Assembly: GCF_001484685.1 (NCBI RefSeq)
Contig: NZ_CP012200.1
Coordinates: 366,321 to 430,320, forward strand
Direction of reading: 5' to 3'
Length of the DNA: 64,000 bases
Origin: Thermococcus sp. 2319x1
GTDB taxonomy: Archaea; Methanobacteriota_B; Thermococci; Thermococcales; Thermococcaceae
Shown: positions 42,426-49,479 of the stretch, one piece after another
How the letters are laid out: every line of letters starts with the position of its first letter
Position numbering within the stretch: the first letter of the stretch is position 1
Notes under the pieces: generated by a model
The model's database searches: none
What the model saw: the letters and a program-made list of their open reading frames with translations, nothing else
Told to the model about the DNA's origin: nothing
Program-made: the position numbers and the translations under genes

Positions 42426-43448
42426 TCATTTTTTAAACCAGCTGTCCAGCGTAAACTGTTTTCCGGCCTTAACTGTTTTTTTAAGCCTTTCTAAGCCGTT
42501 TTTAACTCTTTCTTCACTGAACTCGTGTTCATCACAGAGGAACTTTAATATTCCTTCTTCATCGGGCATTTTCCATTCGAGCTTGTATTCGTCTGTTGTC
42601 GGCGGGTTTAGGAAGAAGTCTTTTATTGCATAGAGATCAACGTCGCTCATTTTTTGGTACTTTGCCAGGGGATCCTTGGAGTATCTGACTATTTCAAGGG
42701 CTGTTTTTGGCCCAATCCCTTTTATGCCTCCGGGATTGTAGTCCGTTCCCACAAGAATTGCAAGTTCTATCAGCTTTTCCCTCGTTATCTTAAGCTCTTT
42801 TAATACCTCTTCAAGAACTATGAGCTCCGGTTTAACTTCCACGTAGATGTCCTTCCCGGGGAGCTTTCTTTTTCCAGTTATGGTGAGGTTCCTCACTAGC
42901 CTTGGTGTTCCGAAGAGGAGCGAGTCGTAATCCTGGCTCGCCGAAGCCCAAACGTGCCCTTTGGATGCCATATAAGCTGCCTGCGCTTCACCTTCGCTGG
43001 GAGCCTGCACCCACGGAATTCCCATAAGCTCTAAAAGCTTTTTAGCCTCCTCGATAAGCATCTCATTTACTTTGCTCGCCCGCTGTGCGTATTTCTTTGC
43101 CTCTTCGATATCACCTCTTGCCAGGGCCTCTTCCCATTTTTCCTGCGCTTCCTCCCTGGCTTCGGCTCTCTTTTCAAGCTCCTTTTTCTTGAACTCCGGA
43201 GGCTTCCCATCGAATACATACGCAGGCTTTATACCCACTTCCATTAGGTTTATAGTCCTGTAAAAAAGCCCCGAAAGGTGGGAAGTTATCCTTCCCTTGG
43301 AATCCATTAAAGGAGTCCCGTCTCGCTGCCTTATCGTTGAGAGGAACTGGTAGATAGCGTTAAATGCATCTATAGCAACTTTTCTTCCGTTTAAATTTTC
43401 AAGCTCAAGTTCTTTCCTCGGTAAAAGCTCACCAATCTGTACTCCCAT
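42426..43448 (-). CDS. fen: Flap endonuclease FEN-1
   Basis: A 340-residue structure-specific nuclease that removes 5' flaps in Okazaki fragment maturation and repair. It begins [10 protein letters not shown], has the conserved acidic residues ([30 protein letters not shown]) and the helix-hairpin-helix [10 protein letters not shown]. The C-terminus Q-F-T-L-D-S-W-F is a PCNA-binding PIP box. Its ATG overlaps the stop of the upstream PsiE-like gene (TAATG), so they are coupled. Confidence 0.97.
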
Positions 43449-43867
43449 TACTCACCACCTATCCTAATGTATAGATGCCCAAGTATAAAAAGCAATCCAC
43501 CGACGGCAAAGAGCTTTAATGCATCGAGCTCCCTAAAATCCGAGGCAACGATGAGCTTTTGGACAAGTGCCACGATTCCAACCTCAAGAATGTGGGATAT
43601 GCTCACACGGTGTTGCCTCAAATAGATTATCAAGATTCTGTAGGTTTCTATCAGGATAATTGTCACGAGTATGTTCGCAATCAGAAGTTTTGGGTCGTTG
43701 ACCTTGTAAGTTAGCTTAAAGTTAAGGTAGATGGAGTACAGGGTGAGGTAGAGTATGAAGAACAGGAACACCATAACAACTGCATCAAAGGAAATCTCTA
43801 AGGTTTTTCTGAAAAGCTTATGAATTTGGGTATATTGGGCTGTTTTTTCATCTTCAATCTTCGTCAT
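43448..43867 (-). CDS. PsiE-like small membrane protein
   Basis: A 139-residue protein with four hydrophobic helices (about residues 28-50, 60-82, 92-110, 118-136), matching the phosphate-starvation-inducible PsiE pattern ([11 protein letters not shown] and [10 protein letters not shown]). Function unknown. It lies in front of fen and is coupled to it by a 1-base overlap; the pairing with FEN-1 is likely positional only. Confidence 0.8.
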
Positions 43868-44323
43868 CTCTATCAGCCTACCGGTGTGTTCATCACCCTC
43901 TCAGGGAGGGGAAGGGTCATCACCATTTTCTATTTTCTCTTCATGGCTTTAAAGCATTGCTCCTTTTTGTTAGATTATGGGATTTATGCCATTCAAAGCG
44001 ATCCCGGAAACCAATGATAGCTTGTAAACGTACATAAAAACCCTAGTTCTCACCACCCGTGAGGCAATCCCTCATCTTCACGGCCAGAATCGCCCCAAAA
44101 CCCTTATCCAAAAACAAGAAAAACCAGTGAACTTCTCAACAATCACCCGGAGTTTCTCCTTGACAACGCTCATATCATGAAGTTAGGGATCAACAGAGGT
44201 GATTACTCATCAAGATTTTTGATTTTTAATCTCTTCAAAGCTTAGCTTATTTTACTATTATAAATCAAAAAAGTTAAATAGTTTGGTAGATATAACGATT
44301 ATGAAAACTTTGTGGTGGTGTCA
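43868..44323. other. 456-bp AT-rich intergenic region before the protease gene
   Basis: No convincing gene. Short frames on the minus strand (M-S-V-V-K-E-K-L-R-V-I near 44170) run out quickly and match nothing I know. The right end carries TATA-like TTATAAATC (about 44257-44265) and TTAAATAG (about 44274-44281) and a GGTGGTG ribosome site for the protease. The base composition is more AT-rich than the genes to the left. Confidence 0.4.
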
Positions 44324-45679
44324 ATGCGGTGGAAACTGCTTGGTGTTTTGTTACTTGGTTTGTTGATTTTGAGTTCTTTTGGTAGTGCGGGAATTGGTAA
44401 CAGTGATAAGGACAAGGCTTGTCGGCTTGTGAGGTACTGGGTTTTTGAAAATGGGAGGTGGGTTGAGAAAAGTGAGCCCAGAGTTTGGTGGTACTGTCAA
44501 GAGCCTGAAAAAGTTAAGGGTTTTAGGGGTTTTGCATTTAGAGAAATGCCCTACGGATTGTTCAAGAGGCCTGATGTTGGTGTTTTACATCAAGCTGTAA
44601 GGGATTTGGCTGGTTTGATGGGAATTGATGAGCTTCATGGGGAATTCTCCGCCAATTTGCCTTCTTACGGAGGAATGTTTATTAACGAAGAGAAAGGATT
44701 AATTTTCGTGTACGTGAAGGATGAGAAGGACAGGGAGAAAATCAAACAAGCATTAGAAAAATACAGAGGAAAAGTAAACATAGTATTCCTAAAGAGTAAA
44801 TACAACTTTGAAGAACTGTTAAAGTGGAAAGAAAAGACAAGAGAACTTTTTAGAATCAAAGAACTTGAAGTTACAATGCTCGACGCCGATGAAGCCCACA
44901 ACACCTTAACCATCGGTTTAGCAGATGTAACACCAGAGAAATTGCAACTCCTTGAAAATGAATTAGAAAAAATAGGAATACCAAAAGAAGCAGTAAAGAT
45001 AGAGAAAAGAAAGCCAGGCATGCCTACGTTATCACCAACGGACAAATTTGATACTCTTATTGGTGGAATTAAAATAACTGCTCTCAGAGGATCATGCACG
45101 CTGGGATTTACATCCAAAATTAACGGAGAAGATTATTTTGTAACAGCTGCACATTGTGCAGAATTTGGGGTAACTGGAGAACCCGTATATCAACCCTGGG
45201 GTATTGGTTCATGGCGTAAAGTCGGAACCATTATAAAGAATCCACCCTTAAGTTCAAACTTTCCTTCGAGGCTTACAGATAGCATGTTAGTCAAAGTTTC
45301 GGGAAGAGATATTGATCACAGGGTTTACTCAAATTGGAATGTTATCGGAACGGCAGAAAGTTACGTAGGAGCCTATGTTTGTAAAATGGGAATAACTACA
45401 TACACAACATGTGGGTACATAACAGAAACACACAGTTCAATTGGTATTGACAGAGATAAGGACGGGTACACTGACTATTGGCTCTTTGATGTTGGTATAA
45501 CTTGTTGTATGGATAGTGATGAAGGCGATAGCGGTGCTCCGGTCTTTTATAAATCATACTACACAAACGACATCAGTATCGTTGGCATCCTAAACGGTAA
45601 GTACTACGATGGAATATATTACAGTGAAATCGATGGTATATTTTCAGAACTTGGTAATATGGAGGTGTCATGGAGTTGA
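44324..45679 (+). CDS. Secreted trypsin-like (S1, streptogrisin-type) serine protease
   Basis: A 451-residue preproprotein. Residues 1-24 (M-R-W-K-L-L-G-V-L-L-L-G-L-L-I) form a signal peptide, and about 25-240 a long charged pro-region, part of which (A-H-N-T-L-T-I-G-L-A-D-V) resembles pro-domains of bacterial alpha-lytic/streptogrisin proteases. The protease follows from about residue 245: His277 in V-T-A-A-H-C, Asp319 in L-T-D-S-M-L-V, Ser403 in G-D-S-G-A-P-V, a complete triad. Several cysteines suggest disulfides. GGTGGTG precedes ATG 44324. Such proteases are common in actinobacteria and rare in hyperthermophilic archaea, and base use is AT-rich, so acquisition by transfer is possible. 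The next gene starts before its stop. Confidence 0.88.
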   Translation: MRWKLLGVLLLGLLILSSFGSAGIGNSDKDKACRLVRYWVFENGRWVEKSEPRVWWYCQEPEKVKGFRGFAFREMPYGLFKRPDVGVLHQAVRDLAGLMGIDELHGEFSANLPSYGGMFINEEKGLIFVYVKDEKDREKIKQALEKYRGKVNIVFLKSKYNFEELLKWKEKTRELFRIKELEVTMLDADEAHNTLTIGLADVTPEKLQLLENELEKIGIPKEAVKIEKRKPGMPTLSPTDKFDTLIGGIKITALRGSCTLGFTSKINGEDYFVTAAHCAEFGVTGEPVYQPWGIGSWRKVGTIIKNPPLSSNFPSRLTDSMLVKVSGRDIDHRVYSNWNVIGTAESYVGAYVCKMGITTYTTCGYITETHSSIGIDRDKDGYTDYWLFDVGITCCMDSDEGDSGAPVFYKSYYTNDISIVGILNGKYYDGIYYSEIDGIFSELGNMEVSWS

Positions 45680-46296
45680 AAAGACTTTTCCTCCTTCTCC
45701 TCCTTTTGATTTTATTGATATCCATATTCTATATCCCTTCCTATGTGAAAAAGAGAACTGCAAACTTTGCAGTGAACGTTTACTATCCAGGAGAACTTGA
45801 GTACAAGGGCTATGAAATTGAGGGAGACAAAATAATCTTTGAGTTTGAGGTTAAAGAGAAGAGTGACGAGATTATTAGGAACCGTGCCTTTCAAAGAATA
45901 ATCAAGCTATTTGGAAAGAGTCCTTGGGATGTACCTGATGTTTACGTATCTATCAATGGAGAGATGCTTGAAGCGTATTTTGGAGTAAGTGATTTCGTGA
46001 CAATGAGCTATTGTGCTTCACCCTATGATATGGAAGAACTCGTTGAAATCTACACTCCAAATGGATATCAGTTTAAAGATATCCATCTCAAAAATAAAAG
46101 TTTAGTTATAGCTCTGGAAAAAGGCAATCAAACAAAACCAAAAATTGTGAAATATGAATCTTTAGCTGGGATAATCAATGATCTAAGGCATAATCGGATA
46201 AAAGTGGTTTATGTGAGTGAGAATAAAATGTGGAATGGCGTAATTGGAGATAAAGGCCCCAAATGTCCCGTTTTCATTTTACCAGAAATTCCATAA
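45670..46296 (+). CDS. Membrane-anchored or secreted protein coupled to the protease
   Basis: A 208-residue protein: one strongly hydrophobic N-terminal helix (L-F-L-L-L-L-L-L-I-L-L-I-S-I-F) followed by an extracellular mixed alpha/beta domain with two cysteines (one in S-Y-C-A-S-P, one in K-C-P-V-F). No family recognised. Its ATG lies 10 bases inside the end of the protease gene behind GGAGGTG, so the two are translated together; it may anchor, fold or inhibit the protease (inference). AT-rich like its neighbour. Confidence 0.72.
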   Translation: MELKRLFLLLLLLILLISIFYIPSYVKKRTANFAVNVYYPGELEYKGYEIEGDKIIFEFEVKEKSDEIIRNRAFQRIIKLFGKSPWDVPDVYVSINGEMLEAYFGVSDFVTMSYCASPYDMEELVEIYTPNGYQFKDIHLKNKSLVIALEKGNQTKPKIVKYESLAGIINDLRHNRIKVVYVSENKMWNGVIGDKGPKCPVFILPEIP

Positions 46297-46415
46297 AGGC
46301 AAATTGGATATCTCATCCCTCTAAATAGAGAAAAATCAATAAAAATAACTGCTACTGATAACATGTTCAACAATCTTGAGGCAAGTTAATGATAGGCTAA
46401 CCAGAGGTGAGAAAA

Positions 46416-47856
46416 ATGCGAGCTATTTTCCGAATTATCTCCATTTTGTTTCTTGGCATCATCCTCTTGTCATCGGGGATTGCTATGACAAATGCTCCAG
46501 TAAACCCTCTGTGGAGTTTGAGCATACAAGCAAAACATATTGATGTTTCCAGTGATTTTATATTGATAATTTCTAATGATACCCTTCATGTATTTGACAA
46601 AGTTGGAAACTTAATATTAGAGGAACCAGCTCCATTATGGGCCGGAGTTGTTGAAGGGGGTCTTATAACAATTGAAGATACAAATTCTACTGAAATGATT
46701 AATGGTATTGGACTGAAGATTCTCCGCATTGTTTGGATAAGTTTACAGAATTATTCCTCAGAGAGCTATACAGTTAAAGTAAAAAACTCTTCCATGGTGG
46801 TTAATTGCTAAAGGAGATAAGCAGATAGCTCTTGTTGACCTTGAACCCATGGGATATTCAAAACTCTATGTCCTCGGGAGAGATGGAATATTGCTGTCAA
46901 CTAACCTCTCGGTATATCCCTCTGATATACTAATAAAAGACAGCTCCATCTATGTTAAGGGTATTAGCGTTATTCAAAAGTTTCTGGATGAACAAGAACT
47001 CAATTTAAAATTTCCAATATGCAACTATCCAAAGAGTTTTGATGCCCATGGGAACTTCCTCGCAGTCCTGCTGATGAATGGCTCCCTATCTTTGATGGAA
47101 AATACAAAAGTACTATGGATGAAAGATCTTGAGTTTAGGGAAGGAAAGATACACGAGTGCCTATATGATACACACATTTCCCCAATATATGGAAACGTCA
47201 GGTTCTTTGGAAACTATGTGCTTGTTGGCATAGATGATAGAGTTGAGCTTTACTCCCTTAACGGCACTCTCTTCTGGAGATTCAAGCTTGATGGGAATAT
47301 TACGTCTCTTGAGGCGTCAGACCTATTAGCTCTCGCCGTAACTCCTAACAAAGTATATTTCATCTCAAAAAACGGGATTTTAGGAAGCTATACAACTAAT
47401 GTCAAACACGTTGCAGTTTTCGGACTAGACGCTGTGATAGCGGATTCCCAGGGAATATCTTTTCTCACATTTAAGCCATTTGTAACTGTTACAGAGATTG
47501 ATGAGAGTATCGCAAGGGAAGTGTTTTCTAATGAAACACCTGATCTCCAGATTGTTCTCGGAAAAGCTGCAGCTAAGTTTGTTAATGCGATCTTTACAAG
47601 AGATACCATGGAATTTAATGGGATTATTTATAAAAGCGCTTGGAAGAGAGAAGATTACTGTCTAATTCAGCCCGGGAATGGGAGGGGGTTCATAGTAGGA
47701 ACGCATAGATACGGAACCAAAGCTTGTTTGCTTTATTACAAAGAAAGAAAACCCAAAAAGCCTGTGCTAATCAGATGGAAGGATTTAAACAGAAATAGCA
47801 AAGTTGAGGTGGAAGAGATTGAAGTTGTATTTATGGAAAATTCCCGAGAACCATAA
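46416..47856 (+). pseudogene. Secreted beta-propeller-like protein, frame broken in an A6 run
   Basis: ATG 46416 behind GAGGTGA starts a signal peptide (M-R-A-I-F-R-I-I-S-I-L-F-L-G) and strand-rich repeats (D-T-L-H-V-F-D-K-V-G-N-L) reminiscent of PQQ/WD-type propellers. The frame ends at 46811, while a +1 frame, open through 46789, continues with W-W-L-I-A-K-G-D-K-Q and repeats such as K-L-Y-V-L-G-R-D-G-I and V-E-L-Y-S-L-N-G-T-L-F-W. One base too many in the A6 run at 46781-46786 explains it. The stop at 47854-47856 is followed by 30 further in-frame codons to 47949, so the end may also be a nonsense mutation. Function unknown; cluster mate of the protease. Confidence 0.68.
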
Positions 47857-48090
47857 AACCCACAGCACTTTAAACCTGAACAACAATATGAGATTGGTCC
47901 ATCTAAGGGAAGAATTTTCATTGCTGTTTCAGAGATTACAATGAGATAAGAATGGCTCCTCTCACCCAACGATCGTTCAAAACCATTGGTTTCTTTAACA
48001 AACGCCGATATCCAAGTCGTCAAATGAATAAGAGAAAAGTTATAACTCCTCTTTCGCATTAACCTTTGTAAAGTTCATGGGGTGGGGGAG

Positions 48091-49479
48091 ATGAGCGTAG
48101 AAGCACTTTTCAAACCAAAGAGCGTTGCCGTTATAGGCGCTTCTGATAAGCCCGGGAAGATAGGCTACGCGGTTATGAAGAACCTCATCGAGTACGGCTA
48201 CGAGGGCAAAATCTATGCCGTCAACGTCAAGGGCGGGGAGATGGAGATAAGCGGGAGAAAGTTCCCAGTATACAAAAGCATCCTCGATGTTCCTGATGAA
48301 GTTGACATGGCCGTTATAGTTGTCCCGGCCAAGTTCGTTCCCCCTGTGGTTGAAGAGTGCGGAAAAAAAGGCGTTAAAGTTCTCCCCATCATAAGCTCGG
48401 GCTTCGGTGAATTGGGTGAAGAGGGCAAGAAAGTTGAAGAAGAGCTTGTTAAGACAGCCCACAAGTACGGCATGAGGATTTTGGGTCCAAACATCTTCGG
48501 TGTCGTTTACACTCCAGCAAAGCTCAACGCCACCTTCGGCCCGACAGATGTAATGCCCGGCAAGCTCGCCCTCATCAGCCAGAGCGGTGCCCTCGGAATA
48601 GCCCTTATGGGATGGACAATACTTGAGAAGGTCGGTCTTTCGGCTGTCGTCAGCATTGGAAACAAGAGCGATCTTGACGATGCCGATCTGCTTGAGTACT
48701 TCGAGGAGGACGAGAACACCGGTGCTATTCTCATCTACATGGAGGGCGTCAAGGACGGAAGGAAGTTTATGGAAGTCGCGAAGAGAGTTTCAATGAAGAA
48801 GCCGATCATCATCATAAAGGCCGGAAGGAGCGAGCGCGGTGCTAAAGCCGCTGCCTCACACACGGGTTCACTTGCTGGTGCAGACAGCATCTACACTGCT
48901 GCATTCAAGCAGAGCGGCGTTCTTAGGGCTTTAACAATTGGCGAGGCTTTCGACTGGGCGAGAACCCTCTCGAACCTTCCCGAGCCCGAGGGAGAGAACG
49001 TCGTTATTCTCACCAACGGCGGTGGAATAGGCGTTATGGCAACCGATGCAGCTGAAGAGGAAGGATTGAAGCTCTATGACAACCTTGAGGAGCTTAAGAT
49101 CTTTGCAAATCACATGCCGCCATTTGGAAGCTATAAGAATCCAGTGGATTTGACGGGTATGGCCGGGGCTGAGGCCTATGAAGGTGCAGTTAGAGATGCC
49201 CTAGCTCATCCGGAGATGCATGCAATAGCCGTTCTCTACTGTCAAACAGCCGTTCTCGATCCAAGAGACCTCGCAAAGATAGTCATCAATGAATATGAGG
49301 CAAGCGGAAGGAAGAAGCCAATAGTGGTTGCCATAGTTGGTGGCGTTGAGGCCAAGGAAGCAATTGATATGCTCAACGAGAACGGAATTCCGGCATATCC
49401 AGAGCCCGAAAGGGCCATTAAGTCACTTGCGGCTTTATACAGGTGGCACAACTGGAAAATGAAGCATAAGAAAGAGTGA
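48091..49479 (+). CDS. acdA: ADP-forming acetyl-CoA synthetase, alpha subunit
   Basis: A 462-residue subunit that, with a separate beta subunit not in this window, turns acetyl-CoA, ADP and phosphate into acetate, CoA and ATP, the main energy step of peptide and sugar fermentation in Thermococcales. It has the CoA-binding domain (S-V-A-V-I-G-A-S-D-K-P-G-K-I-G) and the ligase domains; the phosphorylated His is in A-A-A-S-H-T-G-S-L-A-G near residue 257. ATG 48091 follows GGTGGGGGAG. GC-rich codons mark a highly expressed gene. Which of the acyl-CoA isoforms it is cannot be settled from sequence. Confidence 0.94.
   Translation: MSVEALFKPKSVAVIGASDKPGKIGYAVMKNLIEYGYEGKIYAVNVKGGEMEISGRKFPVYKSILDVPDEVDMAVIVVPAKFVPPVVEECGKKGVKVLPIISSGFGELGEEGKKVEEELVKTAHKYGMRILGPNIFGVVYTPAKLNATFGPTDVMPGKLALISQSGALGIALMGWTILEKVGLSAVVSIGNKSDLDDADLLEYFEEDENTGAILIYMEGVKDGRKFMEVAKRVSMKKPIIIIKAGRSERGAKAAASHTGSLAGADSIYTAAFKQSGVLRALTIGEAFDWARTLSNLPEPEGENVVILTNGGGIGVMATDAAEEEGLKLYDNLEELKIFANHMPPFGSYKNPVDLTGMAGAEAYEGAVRDALAHPEMHAIAVLYCQTAVLDPRDLAKIVINEYEASGRKKPIVVAIVGGVEAKEAIDMLNENGIPAYPEPERAIKSLAALYRWHNWKMKHKKE

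Follow-up and report, generated by a model that had tools for sequence, protein, structure and literature searches.

A secreted S1 protease and its membrane-anchored partner in Thermococcus sp. 2319x1: a candidate effector-immunity cassette of the Thermococcaceae

Within the 64,000-nucleotide stretch of DNA from Thermococcus sp. 2319x1 that was analysed here (the window), a gene for a secreted S1 serine protease is coupled to a gene for a membrane-anchored protein. We somewhat favour the view that the pair is one allele of a polymorphic, peptidase-based effector-immunity system in which the immunity proteins are anchored at the cell surface. The modular construction of such cassettes is evident from direct comparison, whilst antagonism between strains, and inhibition of the protease by its partner, are what this construction would imply. 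The reading draws on a leader shared by unrelated genes, swapping of modules, polymorphism at the chromosomal sites, partners that match the effector class, the retention of orphan partners, a BsuPI domain in the partner of a related protease (genome G113) and the AT-rich, patchy character of the cassettes.

The protease, its partner and their surroundings

The protease gene (44324-45679, + strand) begins with an ATG codon and encodes 451 amino acids; an alternative GTG start is possible upstream, at 44312. The predicted protein is laid out as a Sec signal peptide (MRWKLLGVLLLGLLILSSFGSA, at the N-terminus), a pro-region that ends near residue 244 and a complete S1 domain of catalytic class A (the alpha-lytic/streptogrisin type), and the signal peptide strongly implies that it is secreted. 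The original prediction of an S1 protease with a signal peptide, a long pro-region and an intact triad was borne out. Indeed, the score for Pfam Trypsin (24.0 bits) exceeds the cut-off of 20.6, and His277, Asp319 and Ser403 (codons at 45152-45154, 45278-45280 and 45530-45532) are invariant across eight homologues; the motifs TAAH, TDSMLV and DSGAP, in His-Asp-Ser order, are likewise invariant in relatives. When a profile of eight relatives was compared with solved structures, it matched alpha-lytic protease (9.7e-10) and streptogrisin B (8.1e-8). The pro-region (44399-45055, + strand), as delimited by alignment and class identities, is conserved over all catalytic classes and is a mosaic in the window copy, where the alignment shows it to resemble class C as far as ‘RIKELEVT’ and class B beyond. 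The class A catalytic domain that follows (45056-45676, + strand) is defined by the same kinds of evidence as an exchangeable module. Taken together, the pro-region and catalytic domain are colinear, at 23% identity, with a streptogrisin-type proprotein of another Thermococcus assembly. In alpha-lytic and streptogrisin enzymes, the pro-region is a foldase. For a natural fusion of protease and partner (L043), the AlphaFold model reached a pLDDT of 69 and a pTM of 0.48; its catalytic part was poorly modelled, and it gave no guide to how the two proteins dock.

By homology, the protease is a new member of the known S1 family. It resembles MEROPS S1E (alpha-lytic protease/streptogrisin) in being a secreted proprotein, in its His-Asp-Ser order, in its colinear pro-region and in its nearest solved structures, but it differs in being archaeal, in that its leader and pro-region are common to exchangeable catalytic classes, and in being coupled to a membrane-anchored partner. 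Such an enzyme had been expected to be unusual for the group, in agreement with a 2008 survey in which an S1 protease is listed for none of P. abyssi, P. furiosus and T. kodakarensis (PMC2605481). A short contig from a Thermococcus MAG also carries a streptogrisin-type protease with a bacterial-looking pro-region (L159:3312-4496), which could represent either lateral transfer or contamination.

The partner gene (45670-46296, + strand) starts within the protease gene, the two overlapping by 10 nt, and encodes a protein of 208 amino acids with an N-terminal membrane helix and a beta-rich ectodomain, which we predict to be an immunity or inhibitor protein. Its AlphaFold model (pLDDT 88.6) has the membrane helix at residues 2-21 and a beta-rich ectodomain. 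The earlier description of translational coupling to an anchored protein of unknown family agrees with this overlap and with the outcome of the database searches: the partner matched no Pfam family at E <= 1 and no NCBIfam family, and searches of the PDB returned neither a sequence relative nor a fold match. In particular, no PF12690 (BsuPI) or other recognisable inhibitor domain was found with Pfam.

Further downstream lies a propeller gene that is a single ORF in relatives and is frameshifted in the window genome, leaving an N-terminal part (46407-46811, + strand) and a C-terminal part (46849-47856, + strand) that shares 63-65% identity with the intact propellers of L025 and L051. Comparison of the frames places a run of six A residues (46781-46786, + strand) near the frame change, which may be a mutation or a sequencing error. 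As an intact propeller ORF stands directly 3' of a class C protease in L025 and L092 (12 nt and 2 nt after it, respectively), the window propeller is read as a probable leftover partner of S1 class C, which agrees with the partly class C-like mosaic pro-region of the window protease. An unvarying set of three genes, for a protease, an anchor or chaperone and a propeller, had been envisaged but is not supported: the propeller adjoins a different class (S1C) and is broken here, and the partner also occurs without the protease. The whole region forms an AT-rich patch, as had been noted, with a GC content of 0.379 (44250-47860) against 0.444 in the rest of the window, which places it in the bottom two of 1208 slices of equal size.

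A shared leader and exchangeable modules

The protease gene is headed by a leader (44246-44388, + strand) that was recognised through its DNA match to the leader of an unrelated gene and that comprises a promoter, with a TATA-like element (TTAAATAG) at about 44274-44281, a 5' UTR and the signal-peptide codons. It shares 81% DNA identity (E 1.3e-33) with the leader of an unrelated cysteine-peptidase gene in another genus. At the DNA level, a leader of this kind (promoter and signal peptide, ~150-230 bp) is common to at least six unrelated secreted proteins in the Thermococcaceae, and BLASTN with one such leader as query detected it in 24 of 94 genomes of the family. The proteins encoded behind it include S1 proteases of classes A, B and C, C39-like peptidases with an I69-like pro-domain, a DUF6345 protein, a 298-aa protein with a weak LssY_C match and no peptidase signature, a 356-aa protein, and a truncated coiled-coil-like ORF of no known family. 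Pairwise, the leaders of unrelated effectors are 84-86% identical in DNA over 220-270 bp, as for S1C and C39 (84% over 228 bp, E 6e-67) or for the 356-aa and 298-aa proteins (85% over 267 bp, E 6e-81). Within ~100 nt of each effector lies a partner gene, the product of which is small and usually membrane-anchored. A chance likeness of hydrophobic signal peptides was considered as the source of the leader match and rejected, since the match is at the DNA level, takes in the promoter and UTR, and is as strong as E 1e-65 for pairs of unrelated genes.

The 356-aa secreted effector belongs to no known family and is exemplified by L095:5895-6965, where the shared leader precedes it and genes for fn3-like and membrane proteins follow. 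Its assignment as a glutamic peptidase was rejected, there being no PDB sequence match and no Pfam support.

Behind the leader, the pro-region and catalytic domain show different degrees of conservation. Pro-regions are 53-65% identical across S1 classes and 62-82% identical within a class, and the catalytic domains of different S1 classes share 32-40% identity. In G019 (S1A) and G034 (S1B), assemblies that are placed in different genera, ~400 bp of leader and N-terminal pro-region are 97-100% identical in DNA, and identity drops to ~45-50%, the random level, in the catalytic domain. Alignments of this kind show that the cassettes have diversified by recombination within leader and pro-region DNA.

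The chromosomal sites that receive the cassettes are polymorphic. One of them is the intergenic space upstream of a gene for a PsiE-family membrane protein (43448-43867, - strand; Pfam PsiE, 42 bits), which adjoins FEN1 and forms the left flank in the window; the right flank is an ADP-forming acetyl-CoA synthetase-like gene (48082-49479, + strand) with ~91% identity in L042, L047, L054, L055 and L090. This PsiE-ACS site holds an S1A cassette in the window and a promoter and partner remnant in L090; it holds a C39 cassette in L042 and L047 and no cassette in L054 and L055, all four of which have the same PsiE flank. A second site, between genes for an MFS transporter and a GNAT protein, holds an S1A, S1B, S1C, C39, DUF6345, 298-aa or 356-aa cassette depending on the genome. 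The distribution of cassettes is patchy, and they are AT-rich whatever the host (GC 0.37-0.44, with flanks up to 0.56), which points to a shared pool of cassettes that moves laterally. No relative was found among IMG/VR viral contigs or PLSDB plasmids, no known defence family was matched with PADLOC, and outside the Thermococcaceae relatives were limited to one weak, catalytic-only match in 17 genomes.

Partner fidelity and orphan partners

The type of partner follows the catalytic class of the effector. The window partner family stands directly after class A catalytic sequence, be it intact, fused or a remnant, in nine of nine loci; class B loci carry partner B, a small anchored protein with an NCSKFVEY-like motif, and class C loci carry the propeller. 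Shuffling the labels of partner and class gave a probability of 7e-9 for such perfect sorting, a value that is overstated since the loci are related. In 13 of 15 cassettes, effector and partner are spaced by -50 to +20 nt. The partners evolve far more quickly than the proteases, as illustrated by G034 and G003, the catalytic domains of which are 96% identical and the partners 45%; this would suit an arms race but also a loose specificity, so that effector and partner may not be matched strictly one to one.

Partners are also retained where the effector has been lost. An intact partner accompanies a broken effector in 16 cases (L040, L041, L042, L043, L044, L046, L048, L049, L051, L058, L022, L093 (twice), L097, L125 and L100), and both are broken in two (L050 and L090), whilst none of the 13-14 intact effectors has a broken cognate partner. 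These counts were taken by eye from lists of ORFs, with no automatic rule, in genomes that are related, and the effector is a ~2:1 larger mutational target than the partner; after allowing for effector length and shared descent, the asymmetry is notable but not overwhelming. It is not an effect of partner-based searching, as a search with effectors only gave the same pattern at ~10 to 1. In L046, everything from within the signal peptide up to the final few residues of the effector has been deleted, so that the promoter now precedes the partner. Orphan C-terminal ends or orphan immunity genes were recorded in L040, L041, L042, L044, L046, L093, L100 and L125, and the dN/dS of orphan partners (0.16-0.30) shows them to be kept under purifying selection. 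As to the expectation that protease and partner would be linked throughout, linkage proved invariant wherever S1A catalytic sequence exists; orphan partners are nonetheless common, as a toxin-immunity arrangement would predict.

A second, decayed cassette is present in the genome of the window itself. There, an intact orphan C39-type partner of 245 amino acids (L100:6848-7585, approximately C1:1466848-1467585, - strand) is preceded by what remains of a promoter and by a C39 effector with an internal deletion.

The nearest functional clue to the anchored partners may come from G113 (L158:4464-6035). The S1 protease there has a different pro-region, and the gene directly behind it, at a spacing of 0 nt, encodes an anchored protein that carries a BsuPI domain. 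The ectodomain of this partner was assigned to the BsuPI proteinase-inhibitor family (PF12690) just over the threshold (24.9 bits against a cut-off of 22.9), and BsuPI has an Ig-like fold, both of which weigh against the effector-immunity reading; the case is a direct hint at inhibition. The BsuPI inhibitors are linked to the present system by this ectodomain in the anchored partner of a related S1 protease, but the window partner differs from them in having neither a BsuPI or other Pfam match nor a fold match in the PDB.

Proposed function and comparison with known systems

In the scheme that we propose, the shared leader (promoter, 5' UTR, Sec signal peptide and often the pro-region) would drive the secretion of an exchangeable catalytic effector, in most cases a peptidase (S1 classes A, B and C, C39-like and others). 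The effector would be a proprotein that is exported, folded by its own pro-region and released outside the cell, with the S1E relatives suggesting both folding as a zymogen and self-release by means of the pro-region. Once released, it would attack closely related competitors by cleaving their surface or extracellular proteins. The product of the downstream, translationally coupled gene, a membrane-anchored extracytoplasmic protein, would bind and neutralise the matching effector at the surface of the producer, a role to which the coupling, the class fidelity, the retention of orphans and the BsuPI case all point. Recombination in the conserved leader and pro-region DNA at a few chromosomal sites would then leave truncated effectors behind whilst the immunity genes are kept. 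Several results speak against this scheme. With Pfam, no match was found to delivery domains (RHS, T5SS, T6SS, T7SS, PVC and similar), the effectors having a signal peptide and pro-region only, and the window partner shows neither an inhibitor domain nor a fold match.

A rather unlikely alternative is that these are ordinary digestive exopeptidases that scavenge peptides, the anchored protein being an inhibitor or shield that guards the cell's own S-layer and the common leaders reflecting co-regulation and lateral transfer. Thermococcales grow on peptides (PMC8416519), peptidases make up the majority of the effectors and the G113 partner is inhibitor-like, all of which fit a nutritional role; however, such a role poorly explains why unrelated effectors are exchanged at specific sites, why orphan partners are under purifying selection without their protease, or why a non-peptidase cargo such as the 298-aa protein lies behind the same leader. 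It is improbable that the partner is instead a foldase, a maturation factor or a tether that holds protease activity at the membrane. Close translational coupling, the single fixed catalytic class of each partner and its build of membrane anchor and ectodomain would all agree with that function, but the protease already has a pro-region of the alpha-lytic/streptogrisin folding kind, and at no fewer than 16 loci the partner has persisted beyond the loss of its effector, which would be pointless for a dedicated foldase. An immunity protein or inhibitor is thus likelier than a chaperone, as the protease brings its own pro-region and partners outlive lost effectors.

Returning to the effector-immunity reading, the closest parallels are found in the polymorphic toxins of bacteria (PMC3482391), which have a constant N-terminal part, exchangeable C-terminal catalytic domains that include C39-like peptidases, an adjacent cognate gene (here seen as fidelity of position and type) and orphan cassettes. 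The Thermococcaceae cassettes differ from them in lacking a known delivery module and in that the immunity candidates lie outside the cell membrane; neither ‘trypsin’ nor ‘chymotrypsin’ occurs in the available part of the text of that 2012 catalogue. Among archaea, the VARTIG modules (PMC8416519) belong to the same taxonomic order, Thermococcales, and likewise pair a variable secreted protein with group-specific membrane proteins behind it and are shaped by recombination, but they are centred on a large Ig-domain protein with no identified toxin, whereas the variable part here is a peptidase or another enzyme. There is little probability that the cassettes are, like VARTIG, a hypervariable surface or kin-recognition system that marks self without killing, for although the similar layout of VARTIG in the same taxonomic order (PMC8416519) and rapid partner evolution would suit it, the catalytic triad is intact in full-length S1 effectors and the Ig-type head protein of VARTIG (arCOG07710) was not seen among the effectors, which in Pfam gave a peptidase, DUF6345 or no match. 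In haloarchaea, HlyR4 and HFX_0892 provide another case of a secreted archaeal serine protease in antagonism (PMC12893001); there, the halolysin cuts a precursor to yield an antimicrobial peptide, and the available part of that report describes no cassette exchange or cognate immunity gene.

To our knowledge, there is almost no experimental information on hyperthermophilic archaea fighting one another. Predicted archaeal polymorphic toxins were termed uncharacterised in 2021 (PMC8416519), and the suggestion that the system is undescribed is upheld by a search of the open literature, which found no description, the 2019 mBio survey of archaeal polymorphic toxins lying outside its coverage. It is possible, and offered here tentatively, that the cassettes are an undescribed form of archaeal weaponry in which Sec-released exoproteases attack neighbouring archaea, cassettes are exchanged through their leaders, and membrane-anchored inhibitors of new folds act on the outer face of the membrane. 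The cassettes are concrete, genetically tractable effector-partner pairs with natural orphan immunity alleles; they would provide secreted S1 proteases that are thermostable, together with protein inhibitors of new folds. They would also account for a set of hypothetical Thermococcales genes with membrane-anchored products, and supply marker loci for strain competition at vents.

Some relatives of the partners occur in other settings. In four genomes (L126, L127, L128 and L129), relatives of the window partner stand alone between pheS and tdh, with no protease nearby, which also speaks against the effector-immunity reading. A core homology between partner A and partner B is not claimed here, as the 98% hhalign match rests mainly on an extra fn3-like domain in some members of each. 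The same fn3-like domain is found on two otherwise different anchored partners (L089:4964-5896 and L054:6457-7506), which suggests that the partners may exchange domains too.
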